The translations under genes were made by a program, and so were the position numbers. The notes beneath the pieces were generated by a model. That model was not told the DNA's origin and ran no database searches. It saw only the letters and a list, made by a program, of their open reading frames with translations. A DNA stretch of 64,000 nt from Firmicutes bacterium HGW-Firmicutes-15 (GTDB taxonomy: Bacteria > Bacillota > Syntrophomonadia > Syntrophomonadales > Syntrophomonadaceae), in the NCBI GenBank assembly GCA_002840245.1, contig PHAA01000017.1:1-64000 (forward strand). Direction: 5' to 3'. Below, piece after piece: positions 21,553 through 35,084 of this stretch. Positions within the stretch are counted from its first letter, which is position 1, and each line of letters begins with the position of its first letter.

Positions 21553-22659
21553 TTACTTAAATACCAATATTGTTGATGTTTGATTAATATGTCCTATATA
21601 TTCTTCTCCATATGTGGAAAATCCTATGGTTGGAATGTCTGTAAGAATCTTTCCATAATCCTCGGTTTTACCTTTTTGTTCCAGTTCAAGAGTTCTCAGA
21701 ATACAATGAAAATCAATCATTCCGGAAATCTGGCCAAGCTCTTTTAGCTTAGCTTGAATTGCCTGTTTGGTATCGCTGACAATATCGGTGGATTCAAGTA
21801 GGGAGACCTCCATACCTTCCAGAATATTACAGTAAAAAATCATATTGCTGCCATCAATCCTTTGCGGACTTCTAACATATATTTCATCACCATAGATCAA
21901 TCCTACCGGATTGCTCATAAAATAGTTGGCTGCATCTTCTACTGCAATTCCTAAGGCTTCAGCATAAGCTTGTACTGCGGGGATATTATCAAATTCTATG
22001 ATTTCTCGCGCTTCTGTATTAACTTTTGTTGCCACCAGTTTGTTTTTTAAAGCTTTGAAACTTTGGGTTTTGATTATATCGAAACCTGCCGTTGGTTTAA
22101 TAACTACCAATAATGCAGCATCTGTATAGGCTTTTCCATTTGCATACAAATATGTTTTGGTGAACTTTAGATCATCACCGGCCGACCCACCGATGAAGGT
22201 AATATTGGTTTTATCACCAATTTTGTCCATTATTTTCTCTTCGCAGCCACTTAATCCGTCCACCAAAATTATCCCGACATATTGATTGTAATCAAGATCA
22301 GCCATCGATATTTGAAAATGTTCCTTAAATGAGTCGAACGCCTTTCCAATATCACAATCTGATTTAACATTTTCAATAATTTCAATCTTTACATCCTCAA
22401 TTGATTTAGAATCAAAAGCCATCACCACAATCGAGTTTTTCAGCATTTTACCACTTATAATTTCACCTGCTGTAGAACATCCAAATATTATAATCGAACC
22501 AAAACTTGCATAAAGAGCTGAGCTGAGTAAGTCTGCATCATAGTTTGATGATGCAAAAAATATTATCATCTTCGTATCAAAATCCCGCAGTTGCTTTTGG
22601 ATTTCTAGTACAGCTTCATCAACGCTGCTTTTTTCGGAATATACCGATTTGATATTCAT
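21553..22659 (-). CDS. FIST-domain sensory protein
   Basis: This soluble protein of about 368 residues has a FIST_N region (MIIFFASSNYD..LLSSALYASF, then IIFGCSTAGE, and a central GLSGCEE..GGSAGDD) and a FIST_C region (from about 225: AVQAYAEALG, NPVGLIYGDEIYVRSP, and C-terminal FSTYGEEYIG). FIST domains are known as small-ligand input modules, proposed to bind amino acids, in signalling proteins. Here it is a separate polypeptide ending the chemosensory cluster. The ATG at 22659 is chosen because the GGAGG lies inside the longer frame that begins at 22680. It has no membrane segment. Confidence 0.88.
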   Translation of the reverse strand: MNIKSVYSEKSSVDEAVLEIQKQLRDFDTKMIIFFASSNYDADLLSSALYASFGSIIIFGCSTAGEIISGKMLKNSIVVMAFDSKSIEDVKIEIIENVKSDCDIGKAFDSFKEHFQISMADLDYNQYVGIILVDGLSGCEEKIMDKIGDKTNITFIGGSAGDDLKFTKTYLYANGKAYTDAALLVVIKPTAGFDIIKTQSFKALKNKLVATKVNTEAREIIEFDNIPAVQAYAEALGIAVEDAANYFMSNPVGLIYGDEIYVRSPQRIDGSNMIFYCNILEGMEVSLLESTDIVSDTKQAIQAKLKELGQISGMIDFHCILRTLELEQKGKTEDYGKILTDIPTIGFSTYGEEYIGHINQTSTILVFK

Positions 22660-22679
22660 ACTCTCATATCCTCCATTCA

Positions 22680-22880
22680 TTAAATAGTTACGTTCATTTC
22701 CTTGGCTAAAACTGCAAGCTTTTCAATAACCACCGGATCATCTTCTGATGCACTTGTATACTTTTCCGGATTGATACCTTTCATAACCATTTTTGATTTT
22801 GTCAGGGTAGCGATTGCTACATTGCCATTCGATCTTTTTTCTACAATACTGTCAATAATAATTTTGATTTTACCAGCCAT
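22680..22880 (-). CDS. Small protein of unknown function (66 residues)
   Basis: This 66-residue soluble protein is basic at its N terminus and has no cysteines or membrane segment. It starts MAGKIKIIIDSIVEKRS, with a repeated-lysine middle (LTKSKMVMKGI) and a helical end (DPVVIEKLAVLAKEMNV). A good RBS (GAAAGGAG, ATG about 9 bases later) supports translation. It sits between a receptor gene and the FIST gene, and its stop touches the FIST frame. I do not recognise the family. Its place suggests a role in the same signalling unit, perhaps as an adaptor of the FIST protein. Confidence 0.75.
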   Translation of the reverse strand: MAGKIKIIIDSIVEKRSNGNVAIATLTKSKMVMKGINPEKYTSASEDDPVVIEKLAVLAKEMNVTI

Positions 22881-22935
22881 AACGTTGATTCTCCTTTCAT
22901 ATTTTTATAGTGGTTATAGGATTTCCGAATACAAT

Positions 22936-24477
22936 TTATCGTCTTGCGAAAACATTCAACTTATGGGATGCTTCTAAAAGTTTGTCGGCGTATTGTTTTA
23001 ACTGAGGTGCTATATGTGTATATGTCGAGATTACTGAAAAAAACTGACTAATGTTTTCCGCTATTCCTCTGGAACCTTCAGATACTTCTTGAAAAGTCGT
23101 AGTAAGGTTATATATGCTGGTTGATGATTTTTCAGCATTTTGGGCAACCTCATTGGAAGCTGTTGCCAATTCCGAAGCTGAACGTGCTATATCTTTTATG
23201 CCTATTGATGATTCATTGATATTTCTGGCTGCATTTTGAGCATTCCCAGCAACTTGTCCAATTTTCTCCGAAATATTATTTACTCTTTCCGCCGACTTAA
23301 CAACTTCATTTGATATTTCACTGGTGGTTACATATTGTTCAGTAACTGCTGATCCAATGGTGCTCGATATTTGAGTAATTTCCTCAATAACTTCATTGAT
23401 CATGATGACAGCGGCTACTGCTCTAGACATGTTTTCTTGCATATTATCAATTTGTTGGCTTATCTCCTCGGTTGCTTCAGCAGTCTGGTTAGCCAGTGCC
23501 TTCACTTCACTCGCAACAACCGCAAACCCCTTTCCTGCCTCTCCTGCGCCGGCAGCTTCTATAGCGGCATTCAGTGCCAGCATGTTCGTCTGATTGGAAA
23601 TTTTATTGATTACATTTACTATTTTACCAATTTGTCTGGCGGAGTTATCAAGATCTTTAATTATGTTATTGGTGTCTCTGGCCTTGTTTCCTGCATCTGA
23701 TGTTATACTGATCGAGCGCTCACAATTCCGGTTAACTTTATTTAGCGAAACATTCATTTCTTTTACAGAAACCACTATACTACCTACTGAAGACGAAACT
23801 TCTTTAGCAGAACCAGCCACATTATCAATGCTTTCAGAAATTTGTTCTACCAATTGACTAACCTGTTCAACTCCTGATGAAGCCTGTCCGGAAGCCGATG
23901 CCAGGGTTCTAATAGTAACTGACATTTCTTCAGTTGCAGATGCAATGATAAAAACGTTTTCCATCACATCTGAAAGTAATATAGAAGTACTTTCAATATT
24001 TTTCTCTATATCACTAGCATTCGTATTGACAATATTGTTTTTTTGATTAATTTGCTCATTTAAATCGTTCAACGAATCGGATACCTCAAGAATACCTTGG
24101 GAATAATCGTTTAATGAAATTGAAGTATCAGTTGCCGAATTGACCATTTCTCCGACTTTTTTTATAACACTTTCTTTGCCGTTCATAATGAGGCCAAAAT
24201 CTTCGTTTTCATCTTGATCAATGTTATTGGAATAATGATTATTATCAAAACATCTTTCATAAGCCTCTGATATTTTGTGAATTGATAAATTAATTGATCT
24301 AAATACCTTAATGAAAACTAAAACATGTAATCCAGAAAATAGTGTCAGCAATATTAAAAACAAAATAATATGTTCTCGTAATAAAATGAAAGCAACGATG
24401 GTTAATAAATAAAGAACACCTATCATTAATAACATCAGGGCTTTGGGTTTTAACATCCTATTGTATTTCCTGTCCAT
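22936..24477 (-). CDS. Methyl-accepting chemotaxis protein without outer sensor domain
   Basis: This receptor has about 513 residues. Two hydrophobic helices near residues 11-34 and 36-58 are joined by only a few residues, so there is no extracytoplasmic ligand domain. A short linker leads into a long coiled-coil signalling domain with the hairpin tip motif around [44 protein letters not shown]. Methylation-type Glu/Gln-rich helices flank the tip. The ATG at 24477 is chosen because GGGGGAA precedes it. It lies in the chemosensory cluster downstream of cheX. Confidence 0.92.
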
Positions 24478-24603
24478 ATATTTCCCCCCATGCTTCAAAA
24501 TTCTACCGGTCCGTGCTTTCATGGCTTTCAAATTTTAAACTGCTTGACCAGTAATCTGGTTAATCCCTATCGATTTTCAGTTAAAAAACAACAAGGAGTC
24601 AAT

Positions 24604-25113
24604 TTACACGAATAATATCCTAAGAACCAACTCAGTGTTTTCCGCTTTATACTTTTTAGCTATATTTTTAAGCTTGCTTTTATGGAGAATCAAGTATTTT
24701 GGTCCATATATCGAAAAACAGTGTGAATTTATGTATTCGTATCCCACAGAAGCAAGCTGCGATTTGATCTTGCCTGAAATCATATTAGTAAGCTCATTAA
24801 TTGCATCACATATAGTATCTGCTCCCAATTCCGAAACTGGAATACCACTAAATCTTGATACCATAGTATACGCTTCTGCCGTCGGCATACTAACTATGAG
24901 CATGGCATTTTTCGGTCCGTTCATAAAATATACTCCTGATACACATGCATCAGTGATATGTATTTCCTTAGAGTCCGTAATCTTTACTTCACTCATCGAG
25001 ATGCCTGCCATTGTCTGCATCACGTCATGCACAGCATTGAAAAGGAAAATGCTTTTAAATTTACTTTCAATTTCGTTATTATCCTCGTTATAGGAAGAAT
25101 TTACGTTGTTCAT
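24604..25113 (-). CDS. cheX: CheX-like CheY-P phosphatase
   Basis: This 169-residue cytoplasmic protein belongs to the CheC/CheX/FliY phosphatase group. The active-site helix reads DAINELTNMISGKIKSQL with the ExxN pair (Glu and Asn of ELTN) used to attack phospho-CheY. Only one such helix is visible, as in CheX. It follows the second cheY after 7 bases, so phosphatase and substrate are made together. The SD region overlaps the end of cheY. Confidence 0.87.
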   Translation of the reverse strand: MNNVNSSYNEDNNEIESKFKSIFLFNAVHDVMQTMAGISMSEVKITDSKEIHITDACVSGVYFMNGPKNAMLIVSMPTAEAYTMVSRFSGIPVSELGADTICDAINELTNMISGKIKSQLASVGYEYINSHCFSIYGPKYLILHKSKLKNIAKKYKAENTELVLRILFV

Positions 25114-25120
25114 TTTTCAA

Positions 25121-25504
25121 TTACACCTTCCCTCCAAGACATAACCTAATTTTCTTAATTAGTTCTTCAGTTTCAAAAGGCTTAAGAATATAATTGGCTA
25201 CTCCCAACTGTATAGCTTGAACTATAGAAGTCTTTTCACTCTCAGTTGTAACCATTATAACGGGAATTTCTTTATAAGCACTGCCAGGTGCCTTAATTCT
25301 CTTTAAGAACTCTATCCCATTCATACCTGGCATATTCCAATCAAGCAGAATCAGCCTTATCTCTTTGTTTTCTCTTGCCAGAACCGAAAGACCCTCCTCT
25401 CCATCGGAAGCTTCCAAAATTTCATAGCCCATTAATTTCACACCTTTGCTTATCATCATGCGAATAATGGCCGAGTCATCTACTGAAAGAATCTTAATAC
25501 CCAT
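25121..25504 (-). CDS. cheY: CheY-like response regulator, copy A
   Basis: This is a 127-residue stand-alone receiver domain. The acidic pair VDDS lies at the N terminus, the phospho-acceptor aspartate in LLDWNMPGMNG at about 55, the switch threonine in MVTTES, and the lysine in LKPFETEE. It is about 77% identical to copy B next to it (29 differences in 127 residues, by eye). No output domain is present, so it acts by protein contact. It is encoded just before cheX. Confidence 0.93.
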   Translation of the reverse strand: MGIKILSVDDSAIIRMMISKGVKLMGYEILEASDGEEGLSVLARENKEIRLILLDWNMPGMNGIEFLKRIKAPGSAYKEIPVIMVTTESEKTSIVQAIQLGVANYILKPFETEELIKKIRLCLGGKV

Positions 25505-25558
25505 CCGCTGTCTTCACTCCTTTAGCTTGAAGTATAACCTACGTCATTTATCTTACAA

Positions 25559-25942
25559 TCACACTTTCCCTTCAAGACATACACTTATTTTCTTAGTCAG
25601 TTCTTCAGTTTCGAACGGCTTAAGTATATAATTAGCTGCTCCCATCTGTATAGCTTGAACTATAGAAGCCCTTTCACCCTCGGTTGTGACCATTATAACT
25701 GGAATTTCTCCATAAATGCTGCCCGGTGCCTTAATCCTCTTTAAAAATTCCATCCCATTCATTCCTGGCATATTCCAATCAAGCAGAATCAGTTTTATTT
25801 CTTTGTATTTTACTGACAGAACTGAAAGTCCCTCCTGTGCATTGTGAGCTTCCAATATTTCATAGCCCATGTTTTGAACACCTTTGACTATCATCTTACG
25901 CATAATGGTAGAGTCATCTACTGTAAGAATCTTAATACTCAT
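25559..25942 (-). CDS. cheY: CheY-like response regulator, copy B
   Basis: This 127-residue receiver has the same motifs as copy A (VDDS, LLDWNMPGMNG, MVTTEG, LKPFETEE). Differences cluster in helix 1 and around residues 33-46, a surface that commonly binds partners. The leader upstream of both copies carries the same TAAAGGAGTGAAGACAG sequence, so duplication took in the ribosome binding site. A 183-base gap separates it from cheR, perhaps holding a separate promoter. Confidence 0.93.
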   Translation of the reverse strand: MSIKILTVDDSTIMRKMIVKGVQNMGYEILEAHNAQEGLSVLSVKYKEIKLILLDWNMPGMNGMEFLKRIKAPGSIYGEIPVIMVTTEGERASIVQAIQMGAANYILKPFETEELTKKISVCLEGKV

Positions 25943-26125
25943 ACACTGTCTTCACTCCTTTAGCCTTTCGAATATGACATCCATGTAGGCTTCTATTTCG
26001 AATTTATTTTGAAGAATCGCCAACGATTTCTGAAGCGTTTGTTTTAGTGTATAGATAAATTTTGCAGTATATCGTTTAACATTATCAATTAACATATAGC
26101 AGCCAAAAGTAATCCAGCCCCCTTT

Positions 26126-26965
26126 TCACTTAGCCTTGAAATAAATGCCGTTTTTATAATGCTCCATGGAAAAATACAAGTTGTAATCATTTAATAGCTC
26201 TGAGCTCCCAATAAAGAAAATTCCATGGGGATCAAGGGACATATTTATTTTATTTAGCATTTCTTTCTTAAGTCGTTCCGAAAAATACATCAACACGTTC
26301 CTGAAAAAAATTAGATCAAACTTTTCAAAGAACTCGTTTATAAGATTAAACTGTCTAAATTGGATGGATTCTTTAATCCTATCATCTATCCTCCATATTC
26401 TCCCTTTGTTCTGGAAATACCTATATTTGTAATGATCATCCAGTCCCCTAAGAATAGAAATATTGTCGAATATTCCGGCCTCAGCTGTTTGAAGAGCTGT
26501 TCGGGAAATATCGGTGGCTAAGATCTCAAAGCTGCTCAATTTGATATCCATAAAGCCCTCCCTCTCCAGGTAATTATCTATGCACATAGCCACAGAGTAG
26601 GGCTCCTGACCGTAAGAACAAGCTGCACTCCAAATCCTAACCTTATCCCGACTTCCGTCCCTCAACTCTTTAATATAAGTTGGCAACAGCAATTCCTCTA
26701 ATATTTGCCACGGAGTCTTATCCCTAAACCAGAAGGTTTCTTTGATAGTAACTGCTTCTATCACAAGGTCTACAATTTCAGGATCATTCCAATAGCATAT
26801 CTTTCGATAAAGATCATCAAAACTCATAAAATCTGATTCTTCAAGCATCTTAGACAACTTACTTTCAAGCAGAAATGCTTTTTCTTGCCCTAAAACAATT
26901 CCACATTTATCCTCAATTAATTTCTGGATCATTAAGAATTCCTTTGAGGCAGTTGCACCATTCAC
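26126..26965 (-). CDS. cheR: CheR, chemoreceptor methyltransferase
   Basis: This is a 279-residue SAM-dependent methyltransferase that methylates receptor glutamates. The N-terminal helical domain (FLMIQKLIEDKCGI) precedes the SAM fold with IWSAACSYGQEPYSVAMCI, then FDLIFFRNVLMYF and GIFFIGSSE. The start is GTG directly after the cheB stop, with GGAGG about 10 bases ahead, so cheB and cheR are coupled. Confidence 0.94.
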   Translation of the reverse strand: MNGATASKEFLMIQKLIEDKCGIVLGQEKAFLLESKLSKMLEESDFMSFDDLYRKICYWNDPEIVDLVIEAVTIKETFWFRDKTPWQILEELLLPTYIKELRDGSRDKVRIWSAACSYGQEPYSVAMCIDNYLEREGFMDIKLSSFEILATDISRTALQTAEAGIFDNISILRGLDDHYKYRYFQNKGRIWRIDDRIKESIQFRQFNLINEFFEKFDLIFFRNVLMYFSERLKKEMLNKINMSLDPHGIFFIGSSELLNDYNLYFSMEHYKNGIYFKAK

Positions 26966-28111
26966 CTAATGCTTTCCTCCTCTGTCTAAAGAAATTTGGC
27001 AAATGCGTAAAGCGATATCATCCAAATCAGCCACCTCATCCGACAATCCAGCATCATATACACATTTGGGCATTCCATAAACTACACAAGTAGCTTCACT
27101 TTGAGTAATACAGTAACATTTACATTCCTTTTTCAGTTCTGAAATTCCATAAGTACCATCATTGCCCATTCCAGTAAGAATAACCGCCAATATATTCTTC
27201 CCCCGATATATTCTGGCAACAGATTGAAATAGAACATCCGCTGAGGGTTTTACACCGTTTACATGGTTAGAATCTATAAGGCGAATTATCTTTCCCGCTC
27301 CTTCAGAATTCTCAACGATCATATGCTTTCCTCCGGGCGCAATAACGATATGGTCATTTTTTATAATATCTCGGTCTTTTCCTTCACTCACATTGACCAA
27401 ATTCTTTTTATCTAATGATTGAGCTAACAAACTTGTAAATTCCGGCGGCATATGCTGCACAACTAATATTGGTTTATGTATACCAGCTGGTAACTTATGA
27501 CAAAGCACATCCAAAGCCACCGGCCCACCGGTAGAGGAAGCGATCAAAATCAAATCCACGTTACCCCAAATTTCAGTATTCTGTACATTTTGGTCCATTT
27601 TTTTATGAGGTACGGTATTTTTAACAGCTCCGTTGCTCAAGGTATCCTCTCTGTATTCAGAAGGCATAATTGAGTCGGAAAAATTGGAGTACTTTTTTAG
27701 TATTATCTGGATAAACAGGCTTTGTAAATGGGTTCTAATATCGTTCGATTTTTTTTCCAGCTCTCTTTCAGGTGGTTTCTCAATAAAATCAAACGCTCCT
27801 TCTTTGAGGAATTCTAACGTTAGGGAAGGACTGTCCGGTTTATCATTACTCATTATAATGACTTCAATATTTGGATAATTATTTTTAATTAATTTAATAA
27901 TTTCTATGCCCTTGCTGCTTAAAAGCAATATGTCGATTAAAATTACATCAATATGACACTGTGTTAACCACTCAACAGCAATGTTAGAATTAGATGCAAC
28001 ATGTTCAACAATACCATATTCCGTAGCGTTGACAGCTTCCGCAATAACCTTCCTAGCTATCACTGAACTATCAGCAACCAATATTTTAAGCCTCTTCAAG
28101 AAAAACACCAA
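26966..28111 (-). CDS. cheB: CheB, receptor methylesterase/deamidase
   Basis: This 381-residue two-domain protein has an N-terminal receiver (about 8-125; phospho-acceptor in VILIDILLL) that is more divergent than CheY. The linker (about 126-185) leads to the methylesterase domain with catalytic residues in IASSTGGPVALD, VQHMPPEFT and TGMGNDGTYG (Ser, His, Asp). It reverses CheR methylation and so supports adaptation. It precedes cheR. Confidence 0.94.
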   Translation of the reverse strand: MVFFLKRLKILVADSSVIARKVIAEAVNATEYGIVEHVASNSNIAVEWLTQCHIDVILIDILLLSSKGIEIIKLIKNNYPNIEVIIMSNDKPDSPSLTLEFLKEGAFDFIEKPPERELEKKSNDIRTHLQSLFIQIILKKYSNFSDSIMPSEYREDTLSNGAVKNTVPHKKMDQNVQNTEIWGNVDLILIASSTGGPVALDVLCHKLPAGIHKPILVVQHMPPEFTSLLAQSLDKKNLVNVSEGKDRDIIKNDHIVIAPGGKHMIVENSEGAGKIIRLIDSNHVNGVKPSADVLFQSVARIYRGKNILAVILTGMGNDGTYGISELKKECKCYCITQSEATCVVYGMPKCVYDAGLSDEVADLDDIALRICQISLDRGGKH

Positions 28112-28207
28112 CCTCGCCTAATCAAATAATACAAATTATGGCCGGGCATGGCCTCATCCCCCCACCACAATAAAATTTCAATAAGGTTTATTCACCATAT
28201 TTTCAGC

Positions 28208-29788
28208 CTATATTTTAAATTGCTTAATCAGAATCTCTAATTTCTGCGCAACTTCAGAAAGGGCTTTGGCTAAATCATTAGTTCGGAGAGTGGTGGCGGT
28301 TATCTCACTAGACGTGATGCTAATCTCCTGTACATTCCTGGATATTTCATTGGTACCTTTTGATATTTCATAGGTTACCTGTGTTATGTCCTGTATTTTT
28401 GCATAGGTTTTTTCTGTATTTATAAGCACTTCGCTGGAATCGATGGATAGAACTTTGGAGGAATTTGCTATGTCATGGACTCCACTCGAGGCTTCAATCA
28501 AATTACGGGTTACACTGTGAGTACTGGTTGCGATTTCTCCAAAAGCTTTGGTAATATTTTCAGACTTTTCTGCTGCCATAATGATCGAGTTGGAAATATT
28601 CCCTGTAATTGCAGTCTGCTCAGTAACTGCTGCCGCAATGGTATTGGTAATGGCTATGATCTCTTGAATAACCTCATTGAATGTTCCGACTGCTATGACA
28701 GCCCCAGACATATTTTGCTGCATTGCTTCAATTTGTTCACTGATTTCATCGGTTGCTTCCGCTGTTTGCTTCGCAAGCTCCTTTACTTCATTGGCAACTA
28801 CTGCAAAGCCTTTACCTGCTTCTCCTGCACCCGCTGCTTCGATGGCGGCATTCAACGCTAGCATATTGGTTTGGTCGGCAATATCATTGATTACGTTGAC
28901 AATCTTACCAATTTGCTTGGATGAGTTATTTAATAGTTCTATGATTGTATTTGTATCTTTGGCATTCACTTCTGCATCCTTTGTGATATGGATGGAACGC
29001 TCACAATTTTTACTGATTTCATTTAATGAAATACTAATTTCCTTCACTGCAGTTGCAACACTGTTGACAGAAGAAGATACATCCTGCGCTGAATTAGAAA
29101 CATTATTTATACTGCCAGATATTTGTTCAACTATATCGCTAACCTGTCCCACCGCAACAGATGTCTGCTGAGAAATGGTCGCCAGATTGACTGCTGTATC
29201 CGACATGCTTCCCACCGAATTGGTGGTCAACTGCATGTTACTGCTGGTTTCGGATAGGGCTTGGGCCGTTTCCTCGATATTGGCCGCAATCCCCTCCAAC
29301 GTACTATTAACAATACTAGTCTTAATATTTGTTTCTTCGCTGGTCTCGGATATATTTCCTGATATATTTGATAAATCAGATGTGGATTTGTTTAATACCT
29401 GGGTCGCTGAATAAATATTTTTCATAACCGCTTGTATTTCATCAATAAAAAGATTGAAATATTTTTGAATTTCACCGATTTCCCCTCGGGATGTTTCATT
29501 AATTTTTATGGTCAGATCATGTTCCTGCACTATTCTCCTTAAAAGACTAATGAATTCTATGGAAGGTTTTATATATAAAAAGAAATTCTTTGAACTTGCC
29601 AAGATCACCAAAACAGTGCCGATGCAGACATTAGAAATGATGTAAGGTATCATAGTCTCTCTTCTGATGCCAATGCAAAGCCCTGTCAAAAAGGATATTA
29701 TTATAGTTAGCGGCAGGACAATCACCATTGTCTTCCATAAATAACTATATATTGTAATTGAATTAGATCTTTTTTCATTGTTAGGCAA
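28208..29788 (-). CDS. Methyl-accepting chemotaxis protein, minimal-loop type
   Basis: This 526-residue receptor has two hydrophobic helices at about residues 18-41 and 48-70 with a loop of only some 6-8 residues, so again no extracytoplasmic sensor. The signalling domain has the tip motif ([27 protein letters not shown]) and long helices. It shares this architecture and much tip sequence with the 22936-24477 receptor. It follows cheW. Input may come through the membrane, the linker or a soluble partner. Confidence 0.92.
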
Positions 29789-29854
29789 TACTCTCTCCCC
29801 CTTATTTTATTTTCCAACCAAACTATTGTTATGGTTTTTGAGGCAAATTTTAAC

Positions 29855-30274
29855 CTAAAATATTTTATCAGGGTCAATAATCATTAGCAGTCTATCTTTT
29901 AGTTTAACAACACTTTTTATATATTCGCCCTCGATTCCTACCACATTTGCTGGGGGAATTTCACATTCTTCCTTATCCAAATCAATAACATCCCCTGGCT
30001 TATCGATCAAAAAGCCTATCTGATTCGGGTCGTTGGCTGGCGCTTTTAGTATAATACACGTAGTTCTTTGCAGGTGCCCTTGATCATTGATCCCCATTAA
30101 CTTGGAAATATCAAATAGCGTAACAACCTGCCCCCTCATGTTGAACAGGCCGACAATATAGGGTTTTGCATCAGGAACCGGAGTGTATTCAACGTTCCTG
30201 TTTATCTCCCTAATCAGTGTAATGTTGATTCCAAAAAGGCTATCGTTTATGTAAAAAGACAAAACCTTCCCCAT
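29855..30274 (-). CDS. cheW: CheW coupling protein
   Basis: This is a 139-residue SH3-like adaptor that links CheA to receptors. The family blocks GKVLSFYINDSLFGI, IVGLFNMRGQVVTLFDI and IIDPDKIF are visible. Its ATG overlaps the cheA stop (TAATG). Confidence 0.94.
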   Translation of the reverse strand: MGKVLSFYINDSLFGINITLIREINRNVEYTPVPDAKPYIVGLFNMRGQVVTLFDISKLMGINDQGHLQRTTCIILKAPANDPNQIGFLIDKPGDVIDLDKEECEIPPANVVGIEGEYIKSVVKLKDRLLMIIDPDKIF

Positions 30275-33200
30275 TAAATCACATGCCCCCTTTCTTCCAA
30301 CAATTTGCCAAGTACCTCCAATAGTTTAATCTTATCAAGCTTAAACTCATACACATCGAAGCCAGCATCCAGCCCTGTTTTTTTTTGTAAATCTCCCGTC
30401 ATTGAGGTTACCGCCATTACGGGTAAGTTGGCTAGTTGTTTATCGGCTCTGATCCGCTTAATAAGTTCAATCCCATCCATAATCGGCATTTGGATATCAC
30501 TTACTACAGCGTCAACGTTGTTTTGCTGGAGCAGATCCAGTGCTTCCTTGCCATGATTAGCGATTAGTACTTGATAGCCAGCCTCTTCAAGATAATTTCT
30601 CTCCAACTCTTGAAAAAACGGTGTATCTTCAACTAAAAGAATTTTCGGCCGCTTATGTTCGTTAACCTTTTTGATTTTATAATTAACGGGATCAGCCATT
30701 TCAAAGAGCTCATATACGTTTATTAAAAGAACAATCTTATCGTTTATTATTGTTGAACCAACAAGCCCTTTAGCACTAATTTCATCGTGGTTTAGAATAA
30801 TTCTCCTCTGAATGGTATCATGTATTTTCTCAATTAAGATTCCCATTGGATGTTTGACCAGCTTCGGAATAATTATATAGAATTTACTACCGTTGCTTTC
30901 TTGCTTGTTTAGCATAAGAAAATCCTCTGGCCGAATAACTCTTAAAGAATCTTGTCTGAAGTTAATGTACTCCTTGTCCCCAATTCTTTGGATCTCACTG
31001 GACTCAATTTCCTCAACCCGGGAAACCATGGAAAGATCTATTGCCAGGGTTTCAGGCCCTGTACATTTGAAAAGAAGAAGATTCTGCTGTTCTCTAATAT
31101 TTTCTACTTCCTCGTCAAGCCTGGCATCGTAATTTTCAATATTCCCCTCATTGAACCGCAGGTTGGCTTTAACGATGATTCCTTCAGGATCTAAAATCAT
31201 AGCGGTTTTTCCATCACCCATTATGGTTACGCCTGAATAGCATTTGCAATCTTTGATAAACGACGATAATGGTTTAACTAGGATTTCCTCACTTCCATGG
31301 ATAGCATCAACAGCAATCCCCAGTTTTCTTGAACCGATTTTAATCACCAGTATCCTTAAAATTCCTGTTACGGCTCTCATCTTAAAATATCCTTTAGCTC
31401 CTTTATCCGGGTTTTCATTTTCAGAGTTTTGCTGTATGTATCCAAATAATGTTTTCCTTTTTTCTTCCTTCTTTTCATTGGCTTCGGGATCAAAATAGGT
31501 TCTTTTTAAATTAAGTACATCTGCCAAGTGAACAATCGGCAGAAGGCCTCCCCTGAGTCTTAACACCTCTGAATTGTTTATATATTCGATTTTTCTCGTC
31601 ACTTGATCTGGTTTAATTCTCACAATCTCCTGTAAGTTCACCTGCGGTAAGGCAAACCTTTGGTTTTCTACCTGTACAATAAGAGATGGTATAATTGCTA
31701 GTGTCAACGGGAGCAGCAACCTGAATGTAGTCCCTCGGCTCAAGGTGGTGAAGATTTCAATAGTACCCCCAAGTTTTTCTATGTTTGTTTTAACAACATC
31801 CATACCTACACCCCTGCCAGAAACATCGGTTACCTTTTCGGCAGTAGAAAAGCCAGCTTTAAAAAGTAATTGCAGAACTTCTTGCTCTCCCATAATTGAG
31901 ACTTCATTACTACTCACAAGTCCTTTTTCGATAGCCTTGCTTTTAATTTTGTCTAAATTGATACCGGCCCCGTCGTCTATAACATCGATATTCACATAAC
32001 CACCTTCATGGTATGCTTTCATTAGAATGGTTCCAGATCTGGGTTTGCCAAGTTTTTCTCTATCCTCAGGGCTTTCCAGTCCGTGATCAGCTGCGTTCCT
32101 TATTAAATGTGTCAGTGGGTCACCAATTGATTCGATAATCGATTTATCAAGCTCGACTTCCGCTCCCTCAAGCTTCAGTTCCATTTCCTTTCCTAACTTT
32201 TTGGCCAGCTCCTTGATTATTCGTGGAAACTTAGTGAAAACATTTGAAATTGGCTGCATCCTAGTCTGCATAACCTTTTCCTGTAGTTCGGTGGTTATAT
32301 GATCAATGTTTTGAAGAACTGAATCTATCCCTGAAATACTCTTTCTATGCTTTTCCATAGCCCTAAGCAATTGGTTTCTTCCTAGTACCATTTCGCTTGC
32401 CAGATTAAGCAGGTCGTTCAAAAGTGAAACATGAACTCTTATGCTGTCTTCAACCGTAAGCTGCTGATTCTTTTTGCTTACTGTATCTATTGGCTTTTCA
32501 AATTCGGCTTGCTCAGGCATAGCTGCTTTCGTTTCGGTCGCGCTATGATCCTCGTCCGCTGGTACGTCTTTTTCATTCTGCGAATCAATTTCTATTTTCA
32601 ACTCGTAGATATTCTGTTCCACTATATTTAGGGCTTCCGCTATAAAATCCTTCTGTAGAACCGTTGTGAAATATATCTCTAAAACGATATCCTCAATGGG
32701 GTATTCGTTGTATTCAATCGGCTCAGCCGCGTATAGTTTGAGCTCGACGAACTCCCCTATAGATTTAATAAACTTAATAAGTTCAACAGGATTATTACCA
32801 CATTTAAGGAGATCTTCATTGAGGTTTGCCTTAATCATGTAATAGAAATGCCCGTGTTCAATTGCCTCTTCTATCATACTGCTTTTTAATTTTGATTCAG
32901 CTTTTATGACATCTTCATCTTGATACTCAATCAAAACTGATGGTTCAAAAATATTTTGTTCATGTATATTAATTGCTTCTGTCAGAAAACTTTTCTGTAA
33001 AACCGATGTAAAATAAAATTCCAGAACAATGTCCTGGAATGAATCTTCCATAGTGCTAGTCAATTCAGACTCGCAATTTTTAACCCAGACGAACTTCCCG
33101 ATTGATTTGATGCTCTGAATAATTTGAACGGGGTTGTTATCACTTTTAAGGAGATCTTCATTAAGGTTTGCCTTAATCATGTAATAGAAATGCCCGTGAC

Positions 33201-33690
33201 TTATGGCATCCTCAATTATAGTGTTTCTCATCTTTGCCTTTTCGGCAAATCCATCTTTTTTATCAAGAGCAGATTTTTTGTCGGCTTTTTTTGCATTGGT
33301 AAAGGCTTTACTATCCGTCTTAAGAAATCGAGATATATTTTCCACATGTTCCGCTATTTCTATATTTTGGCTATTCATGACATCGTCCACCATGACTTTT
33401 AAACAATCATTAGCAGCGAGCAATATATCCACCATTTCGCCCATAATTTGTAGTTCTTCGTTGCGGATTTCCCCGAAAAGGTTCTCCATACAATGTGAAA
33501 GTTCAACAATCTTTGTCAGATCAAAGAATCCTGCACTTCCTTTTATGCTGTGAACAGCTCTAAATATGGTATTGACATCCTCATGATCAATTAGATCCAG
33601 ATTAATATTTACCAGGCTATTTTCAACGGTCTCCACATGGACTTTTGCTTCTTCAATAAAACTCTGAATGTATTCTTCGTTTTTCAGCAT
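30274..33690 (-). CDS. cheA: CheA histidine kinase, multidomain, with receiver and duplicated insert
   Basis: This kinase has about 1138 residues, much longer than the usual 650. Numbered from the 1141-residue frame, it has an Hpt domain (about 5-125; phospho-His 50 in AVHSIKGSAG), two tandem copies of one domain (about 163-251 and 277-365), a dimerisation helix (about 418-480), the ATPase domain (HLIRNAADHGLE, DDGAGI, GRGVGMDV), a CheW-like domain (about 640-780), a second CheW-like region (about 860-1000), and a receiver (about 1012-1135; SDIQMPIMDG). The ATG at 33690 is preferred because GGCGGTGGG precedes it. It is the first gene of the cluster. Confidence 0.94.
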   Translation of the reverse strand: MLKNEEYIQSFIEEAKVHVETVENSLVNINLDLIDHEDVNTIFRAVHSIKGSAGFFDLTKIVELSHCMENLFGEIRNEELQIMGEMVDILLAANDCLKVMVDDVMNSQNIEIAEHVENISRFLKTDSKAFTNAKKADKKSALDKKDGFAEKAKMRNTIIEDAISHGHFYYMIKANLNEDLLKSDNNPVQIIQSIKSIGKFVWVKNCESELTSTMEDSFQDIVLEFYFTSVLQKSFLTEAINIHEQNIFEPSVLIEYQDEDVIKAESKLKSSMIEEAIEHGHFYYMIKANLNEDLLKCGNNPVELIKFIKSIGEFVELKLYAAEPIEYNEYPIEDIVLEIYFTTVLQKDFIAEALNIVEQNIYELKIEIDSQNEKDVPADEDHSATETKAAMPEQAEFEKPIDTVSKKNQQLTVEDSIRVHVSLLNDLLNLASEMVLGRNQLLRAMEKHRKSISGIDSVLQNIDHITTELQEKVMQTRMQPISNVFTKFPRIIKELAKKLGKEMELKLEGAEVELDKSIIESIGDPLTHLIRNAADHGLESPEDREKLGKPRSGTILMKAYHEGGYVNIDVIDDGAGINLDKIKSKAIEKGLVSSNEVSIMGEQEVLQLLFKAGFSTAEKVTDVSGRGVGMDVVKTNIEKLGGTIEIFTTLSRGTTFRLLLPLTLAIIPSLIVQVENQRFALPQVNLQEIVRIKPDQVTRKIEYINNSEVLRLRGGLLPIVHLADVLNLKRTYFDPEANEKKEEKRKTLFGYIQQNSENENPDKGAKGYFKMRAVTGILRILVIKIGSRKLGIAVDAIHGSEEILVKPLSSFIKDCKCYSGVTIMGDGKTAMILDPEGIIVKANLRFNEGNIENYDARLDEEVENIREQQNLLLFKCTGPETLAIDLSMVSRVEEIESSEIQRIGDKEYINFRQDSLRVIRPEDFLMLNKQESNGSKFYIIIPKLVKHPMGILIEKIHDTIQRRIILNHDEISAKGLVGSTIINDKIVLLINVYELFEMADPVNYKIKKVNEHKRPKILLVEDTPFFQELERNYLEEAGYQVLIANHGKEALDLLQQNNVDAVVSDIQMPIMDGIELIKRIRADKQLANLPVMAVTSMTGDLQKKTGLDAGFDVYEFKLDKIKLLEVLGKLLEERGHVI

Positions 33691-33699
33691 AATACCCAC

Positions 33700-34158
33700 C
33701 GCCTTAAATAATTAGGCTATTAAAATTGGTTAAATAGTCCTCCGCCCAAAGAAATCGATAATATTTTATAATGATGAATGAAAAAAACAGAACCATATTT
33801 AGTTTTCTTCCTACCTAAACCTGTCCTGCATAATTTATACATAATTTCCCTATTTTCATTTTTTATTTGCAATATTCTAATTATACAATAATATTTCTAC
33901 ATTAATGTCAATGATTCCTTTATTATTTTAAATATCTGCAAATACAAGAAAATAGGACTATCCATTCTATTTTGCGGGTAAAACCTGATTTACCTGCAAA
34001 AAAAATGGATAGTCCTTAAATACGGTACTTTTACATATCGTAAGAAATCATTGAGCAAAGAAATGTATATTGGGGAAGTTGTTTATATATTTTCATAAAA
34101 TTATTGTTCCAAAAAAGGGTTCAACCCTACATCAATGCATAAGTAAGATTGAATGCAT
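33700..34158. other. 459-base intergenic region upstream of cheA
   Basis: No gene is visible. It is very AT-rich near 33780-33950 and should hold the promoter of the chemosensory cluster, but I could not assign -35/-10 boxes with confidence. It contains a two-tier hairpin (next entry). Confidence 0.6.
33954..34016. repeat. Two-tier inverted repeat
   Basis: The outer arms AGGACTATCCATT and AATGGATAGTCCT match exactly over 13 bp. The inner arms GCGGGTAAA and TTTACCTGC form a 9-bp stem with one G-U. The region between the inner and outer stems on the 3' side is A-rich. It may be a terminator or a small palindromic element between the DUF3189 and cheA genes. Confidence 0.75.
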
Positions 34159-34602
34159 TTAAGTAAATCTGAACTGGCTTTTCAATTCTTCAACCTGTTC
34201 ACATATGCCAGTTAATTCATTTTTAATCAGATAAGCAATTATGGGGATAACCAGGTAATGGACTATCTTAACACGGCCTATACGATGTAGAAAAAGTAAT
34301 ATCCTCTCTCTCTTTATAAATACCGGTTTAATCATTAAGTCGCGTTCGGTGCAATTCAATATCTCAACCAATTGTTTTATTGATTTTGCTGCCATCAGAA
34401 CATCGCGTCCTACTCCCAAAGAATATACTCCATTACTTTGTTCGTCATTATCCAAGAATATTGGATACCCCAAGGCTTCACTGCTCCGATCACCCCAAAA
34501 TTGTATGTCTCTGTAATTATTCGGCTCGGGCTTACCCAAATATAAATGGGCGGCTATAAGCGTATGATGAATCCCAGTGGTACCCAAAAAAAGAATATTC
34601 AT
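34159..34602 (-). CDS. DUF3189 family protein, second copy
   Basis: This 147-residue protein opens with MNILFLGTTGIHHTLIAAHLYLGK, a P-loop-like start similar to its upstream neighbour but without the GG-AHSS motif. DUF3189 proteins are Firmicute proteins of unknown function. It starts 2 bases after the other copy's stop, and is more diverged, suggesting an old duplication. It probably belongs to the sporulation-linked operon. Confidence 0.8.
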   Translation of the reverse strand: MNILFLGTTGIHHTLIAAHLYLGKPEPNNYRDIQFWGDRSSEALGYPIFLDNDEQSNGVYSLGVGRDVLMAAKSIKQLVEILNCTERDLMIKPVFIKRERILLFLHRIGRVKIVHYLVIPIIAYLIKNELTGICEQVEELKSQFRFT

Positions 34603-34604
34603 AA

Positions 34605-35084
34605 TCAGGTCGCCTGAACCTTAAAATCATGCCGCATTGCCTTCAGACGGGTTATTTCTACCAGATTAACCAATTGACTAAATGCCTTCTGTGTTCCCCA
34701 GGTTACCACCGGTCTCCCCAACAATACTAATCTCATACGCCGTGAAGTAAATCCCCCTATTTTCATGCTCCAGTTCACCCTATCCATACAGTTGACTACG
34801 ATAAGTTGATCCTGTTTTCCCACTATTTCAGCCACACCCATTAAGATCGCGCTATATCTGTTTCCCATACTTTTTTTACCCAGGACATAAACCTCATGAC
34901 CGAATTCATCAGTCCCCATATATCTGATCGAACCAAAATCTACATCGCTGGTTTTATCATAATATGGTATCTCCATTAATTGTTCCTTTGTGGGAGGCCT
35001 AGTCTTGTTTAACATCCCCAGGTGAAGTGCTGCAGCGGTTACAGATGAATGGGCCCCCCCGAAGCAATGGTAAATAATTTTCAT
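34605..35084 (-). CDS. DUF3189 family protein, first copy
   Basis: This is a 159-residue protein. MKIIYHCFGGAHSSVTAAALHLG at its start is the family signature, with a Gly-rich loop after a first beta strand, and a central IRYMGTDEFGHEVYVLG block. It follows spoIIP after 37 bases. Its function is unknown. The location next to spoIIP and a DUF1614 protein supports a role in sporulation, which is an inference. Confidence 0.83.
   Translation of the reverse strand: MKIIYHCFGGAHSSVTAAALHLGMLNKTRPPTKEQLMEIPYYDKTSDVDFGSIRYMGTDEFGHEVYVLGKKSMGNRYSAILMGVAEIVGKQDQLIVVNCMDRVNWSMKIGGFTSRRMRLVLLGRPVVTWGTQKAFSQLVNLVEITRLKAMRHDFKVQAT

Follow-up and report, generated by a model that had tools for sequence, protein, structure and literature searches.

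A candidate p66-FIST cytoplasmic sensor beside receptors lacking an outer domain in a putative second chemosensory array of a Syntrophomonadaceae bacterium

In the CetA/CetB system of energy taxis in Campylobacter jejuni, a membrane-bound MCP associates with a cytoplasmic sensor that is made as a protein of its own from a co-transcribed gene (PMC3558505), and chemoreceptors without any outer domain are a recognised topology, known as class III (PMC8396549). NosP, a FIST haem protein, modulates a kinase, and stand-alone FIST proteins of the NosP type regulate the kinases adjacent to them (PMC12570481, PMC8846402). Among open-licence papers, we found none linking FIST to chemosensory arrays. In this paper, we have analysed a window of 64,000 nucleotides (contig PHAA01000017.1, positions 1 to 64,000) from the 3.47 Mb genome of Firmicutes bacterium HGW-Firmicutes-15 (GCA_002840245.1, here G000), whose nearest named relatives in our genome collection are Syntrophomonadaceae MAGs. 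The window contains a chemotaxis (che) gene cluster that ends in a FIST gene.

The cluster (21553-33699) consists of 11 genes, every one on the minus strand, which form an operon-like run with intergenic distances of -1 to 183 nt (mostly -1 to 96 nt, with a single gap of 183). The genes, together with one feature upstream of them, are as follows:

34116..34128, minus strand: terminator-like hairpin downstream of DUF3189, between the che run and the sporulation-side genes (pattern scan; such matches are about equally frequent in shuffled sequence)
30274..33699, minus strand: CheA, 1141 aa, with Hpt, two P2-like repeat copies, dimerisation, HATPase, CheW-like stretches and a C-terminal REC (Pfam; repeat read from the translation)
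29855..30274, minus strand: CheW (Pfam)
28208..29788, minus strand: MCP2, 526 aa, membrane hairpin without an outer domain, AAGAGE tip (Pfam, hydropathy, tip motif)
26966..28111, minus strand: CheB, REC plus methylesterase (Pfam)
26126..26965, minus strand: CheR (Pfam)
25559..25942, minus strand: CheY-like protein, single REC domain (Pfam)
25121..25504, minus strand: second CheY-like protein, single REC domain (Pfam)
24604..25113, minus strand: CheX, of the CheY-P phosphatase family (Pfam, 38.1 bits; cut-off 27)
22936..24531, minus strand: MCP1, 531 aa, two membrane helices, loop of ~4 residues, AAGAGE tip (Pfam, hydropathy, orthologues)
22680..22880, minus strand: p66, 66 aa, three-helix protein (always next to FIST, or fused to it, in this FIST subfamily)
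21553..22659, minus strand: soluble FIST protein (FIST N and FIST C); 368 aa when counted from the probable start codon (Pfam; GGAGG and orthologue starts)

Every gene of the adaptation set named in a preliminary description of this DNA, i.e. CheA, CheW, CheB, CheR, CheX and two CheY, was confirmed by Pfam, and the CheA-CheW-MCP core, including the MCP signalling domain, is complete in the run. The last gene indeed encodes a FIST-domain protein, with Pfam scores of 140.3 bits for FIST N (cut-off 23.2) and 75.5 bits for FIST C (cut-off 28.5), and no convincing membrane helix was predicted in either this protein or p66. Its true start is probably the ATG at 22659 and not 22680, as this codon is preceded by GGAGG and agrees with the starts of the orthologues. 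MCP1, p66 and FIST are adjacent separate genes with gaps of 55 and -1 nt, and FIST has p66 and MCP1 on one side and a DUF512 radical-SAM gene on the other; the cluster as a whole is flanked by sporulation genes on one side and EngA/PlsY on the other. In CheA, a P2-like segment (GHFYYMIKANLNEDLLK...) is visible twice in succession in the translation. A DUF3189 gene pair (34159-35084) lies upstream of the run and adjoins SpoIIP, and ~255 nt upstream of CheA there is a long imperfect hairpin (33954-34016; 19-nt arms, 89% complementary, fold z-score -6.6), which matched no Rfam family at the gathering threshold and has no further copy in the rest of the genome. A regulatory RNA upstream of CheA was considered and set aside, as Rfam had no match there at gathering thresholds.

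By hydropathy, the membrane helices of MCP1 span residues 32-50 and 55-73, with 4 residues between them, and those of MCP2 residues 13-31 and 46-64, with ~14 residues between them, so that neither receptor has space for an outer domain. No HAMP domain was matched by Pfam in MCP1, and MCP2 gave one sub-threshold match only; the receptor arm C-terminal of the tip comprises ~200 residues. The MCP1 hairpin is kept in orthologues at 73% and 62% identity. In the two closest orthologous clusters (G027 and G028), on the other hand, a larger second receptor with a HAMP domain and a predicted outer segment of ~160-170 residues lies between CheX and MCP1. The earlier claim of two-helix receptors without an extracytoplasmic ligand domain thus holds for both receptors here, but among the three clusters the missing outer sensor is conserved in MCP1 and specific to G000 in MCP2.

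When the receptor loci of G000 (~20 receptors) were retrieved and their tips compared, the AAGAGE signature was found in MCP1 and MCP2 only, the rest having AARAGE-type or other tips; the same AAGAGE tip is common to every receptor of the orthologous clusters. Since this tip is exclusive to MCP1 and MCP2 within the genome, both most likely couple only to the CheA and CheW of their own cluster. Elsewhere in the genome there is a flagellar operon that has a separate CheA, which lies together with FlhA on contig C30. The che run therefore, as far as tip and gene comparisons can tell, most likely encodes a second chemosensory array, dedicated and distinct from the flagellar one. It had been noted earlier that flagellar genes are not nearby, and this was borne out when the window was compared with part of the flagellar operon, the only homologues in the che cluster being CheA, CheB, CheW and REC. 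The accompanying suggestion of a non-flagellar output was not sustained: the genome has a flagellar operon, and the two CheY proteins and CheX equally fit control of the switch. Output through type IV pili was also rejected, no PilT-family gene scoring above its own cut-off and nothing else pointing that way. Because flagella genes are present in the genome, the flagellar switch would be the simplest target of the array.

The preliminary description had mentioned the 66-residue protein only as a thing to test, and it has proved to be the constant partner of FIST. Searches of Pfam, NCBIfam and PDB sequences returned no convincing match for p66, nor did a structure search, in which several H-NOX rows at E >1 were not credited; its assignment to a known family was accordingly dropped. 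A p66 profile built from eight copies was then applied to 80 FIST loci that had come out of scanning 84,980 species genomes. The profile found p66 in 64 of the 80 loci, namely in 64/64 of those with a FIST at least 42% identical to that of G000 and in 0/16 of those at 37% or below; NosP-like FIST genes are without p66. The p66 gene immediately precedes FIST, in most cases by no more than 40 nt, or the two form a single ORF with p66 at the FIST N-terminus (13 ORFs), and the loci span many phyla and some methanogens. Conversely, when 25 whole genomes were searched with p66 only, all of the 36 matches adjoined FIST or were fused to it. Two more loci, found via p66 alone on Bacillaceae megaplasmids, also have an adjoining FIST gene, and both have an MCP gene within ~1.3 kb. 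Judged by this linkage, p66 is a near-obligate partner of FIST. Its AlphaFold model consists of three helices (pLDDT 89), and a natural Clostridium p66-FIST fusion (L137:9776-11137) was modelled with a mean pLDDT of 94 and a pTM of 0.88; the p66 region of the fusion model was hardly covered by the structural comparison, and no fold is claimed for it. p66 represents a small protein family without a Pfam entry, marking a separate branch of FIST sensors in many phyla and some methanogens. Since it exists in free form as well as in FIST fusions, the complex is directly accessible to experiment.

In a tree of 78 FIST sequences (midpoint root), the p66-linked proteins form a clade with a support of 0.94. 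The G000 protein matches the NCBIfam NosP model NF041558 over its full length (residues 14-372) with 264.2 bits, below the curated cut-off of 450, and the adjacent histidine kinase typical of NosP is missing, CheA being the sole kinase in the run; FIST proteins without p66 are often found beside histidine kinases. At position 207, Ser occurs in 62/62 p66-linked proteins and His in 12/16 of those without p66, which we take as a lead toward a ligand other than that of NosP, not as proof. In the structural comparison of the fusion model, the best PDB match of the FIST fold was FBXO22 (Z ~20); behind it, the fold also matched chorismatase and cyanuric acid hydrolase/barbiturase with Z 10-12. As the fold is common to chorismatase and cyclic amide hydrolases, FIST might, instead of being sensed itself, act as an enzyme or carry a metabolite, with the product or cargo being what the array senses, and certain polar residues are conserved in almost all of the 78 FIST sequences. 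However, the matches at Z 10-12 reflect a common fold only, and the fusion of FIST to signalling outputs points to sensing; we regard the enzyme or carrier reading as very improbable. In a search of phages for FIST, one weak record only was found.

Orthologues of the G000 CheA with more than 70% identity were found, in a survey of 63 genomes of the order, in G000, G027 (72%) and G028 only, the G028 copy being a contig-edge fragment. All three of these same-family clusters end in MCP1-p66-FIST, and MCP1 is short-looped in 3/3. G027 and G028 have an XdhC-like neighbour in common, and the G000 cluster lies in a different genomic setting. Four distant clusters of Bacillota outside the order (G376, G248, G313 and G175), whose CheA is 54-67% identical, have one receptor each and lack MCP1, p66 and FIST altogether. 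Being all present in the family clusters and all missing from the four distant ones, MCP1, p66 and FIST appear to have been gained or lost together, the three family clusters being a single lineage and thus representing few independent events. The preliminary description had made its proposal depend on the presence of the FIST gene in orthologous clusters; it is present in the close ones and absent from the distant ones, where MCP1 is absent as well. Elsewhere, G001 and G003 have p66-FIST and no che genes, and in G038 the FIST gene lies at a contig edge. In G376, p66-FIST is located near a PAS histidine kinase, SiaC and a DUF6272 protein (L070:8291-13450), with the FIST-less che cluster on another contig.

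The contexts of p66-FIST in other lineages are diverse. When the same-strand genes within 450 nt of p66-FIST were counted, with the two Syntrophomonadaceae loci left out and the other genes of the same loci taken as control, MCP genes made up 5 of the 68 neighbours versus 0 of the 718 control genes (Fisher p 4e-6). Among the five, the Acetivibrio receptor lacks an outer domain and has a single membrane helix; furthermore, on the Pontibacillus megaplasmid, which is outside the sample of 68 neighbours, p66, FIST and an MCP are encoded in this order on one strand, the MCP being a hairpin receptor of 327 residues whose gene lies 96 nt downstream of that for FIST. The remaining neighbour receptors have sensor-sized outer segments, with Cache or 4HB domains where scanned; several receptors adjoining p66-FIST in Desulfuromonadales, Geobacter-group and Syntrophaceae genomes have such domains, and the idea that p66-FIST partners are sensor-less as a rule was given up on this account. 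In some ORFs (Desulfosporosinus, Clostridium algoriphilum and others) the p66-FIST fusion continues into GGDEF or GGDEF-HD-GYP. Apparently free-standing p66-FIST pairs occur too. In many loci (e.g. L053, L055, L075 and L084) the surroundings of p66-FIST contain no chemotaxis gene, and p66-FIST is thus a general module, not a chemotaxis part. In Geobacter-group loci (L082:11239-15728, L094 and L114), p66-FIST is followed by a conserved operon encoding a DUF4388+roadblock protein, several Pfam-less proteins and a ParA-like ATPase; this operon may be a further output of p66-FIST.

These distributions bear on two other explanations of the cluster. MCP1 and MCP2 might sense the membrane, the redox state or the proton motive force unaided, with p66-FIST as a co-transcribed passenger that has a separate job, as would suit receptors of class III topology and the many genomes in which p66-FIST lies far from any che gene. 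This reading leaves unexplained both the joint presence and absence of MCP1 and p66-FIST and the repeated adjacency to receptors in unrelated lineages, and we consider it unlikely. Alternatively, p66-FIST might act directly on CheA (or CheW) in the fashion of NosP, the hairpin receptors being mere scaffolds. Besides the known action of NosP-type proteins on adjacent kinases, three Geobacter-group genomes speak for this possibility, in which p66-FIST lies 220-310 nt before CheW-CheA-CheR-CheB with no receptor gene in the stretch examined. Yet it is MCP1, not CheA, that adjoins p66-FIST in 3/3 family clusters, receptors are the enriched neighbours elsewhere, and CheA occurs without FIST in the distant clusters, all of which makes direct action on CheA unlikely in our judgement.

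The reading that we prefer, and hold slightly likelier to be right than wrong, is that p66-FIST serves as the cytoplasmic sensor of a dedicated second array with hairpin receptors, similar in plan to CetA/CetB. p66 and FIST would assemble in solution and together bind a ligand from the cytoplasm, and their complex would dock on the membrane-tethered MCP1, perhaps also on CheA/CheW, thereby changing the kinase activity. CheR and CheB would supply the methylation memory, and the phosphoryl output would be governed by CheX and the two CheY proteins, with the flagellar switch as its simplest target. An intracellular input to the array through FIST had been proposed in the preliminary description, and the proposal has gained comparative support from the MCP1-p66-FIST block in 3/3 family clusters, its absence from the four distant ones, and the location of p66-FIST beside receptor or che genes elsewhere. 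This evidence concerns the linkage and co-inheritance of MCP1, p66 and FIST, as distinct from contact. Against the preferred reading, p66-FIST is often far from chemotaxis genes, several neighbour receptors own 4HB or Cache domains, MCP1 may sense the membrane or redox state alone, and the three family clusters are one lineage. More broadly, we give an even chance to the view that bacteria and archaea widely possess, in p66-FIST, an unrecognised cytoplasmic sensor of two subunits whose partner, and probably whose ligand, differs from that of NosP. Such a sensor would connect to chemoreceptor arrays, to c-di-GMP enzymes and to other outputs, and here would turn sensor-less membrane receptors into an inside-sensing array. 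p66-FIST offers a concrete candidate for how receptors without an outside sensor receive their input.

Compared with known systems, the G000 protein resembles NosP in being soluble, in having both FIST N and FIST C, in its presumed action in trans and in matching the NosP model over its full length, but it differs in its score below the model cut-off, its lack of an adjacent histidine kinase, its pairing with p66 and its Ser at position 207. The preliminary statement that FIST is usually found in fused signalling proteins was half right, as NosP exemplifies FIST proteins that stand alone and act on kinases. Of the FIST-GGDEF and FIST-EAL/HD-GYP signalling proteins, the FIST-GGDEF(-HD-GYP) proteins of Desulfosporosinus, Clostridium algoriphilum and others carry p66 too and use the module as an N-terminal input; in G000, by contrast, p66 and FIST are encoded apart from each other and from the output, a che array. 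FBXO22, a eukaryotic F-box protein with a FIST region, has the fold in common but is a ubiquitin ligase adaptor. The four distant Bacillota che clusters are like the present one in their CheB and REC genes and the AAGAGE receptor tip, with CheX, CheR and CheW identified in most of them, but they have a single receptor and no p66-FIST, as against two receptors and p66-FIST here. With CetA/CetB, finally, the cluster shares the arrangement of an MCP and a candidate soluble sensor as adjacent separate genes, here MCP1-p66-FIST; the sensor there, however, is a PAS protein, whereas here it would be FIST with p66 and no PAS, the membrane loop is of a few residues, MCP1 has no detected HAMP, and the pair lies inside a full che cluster.
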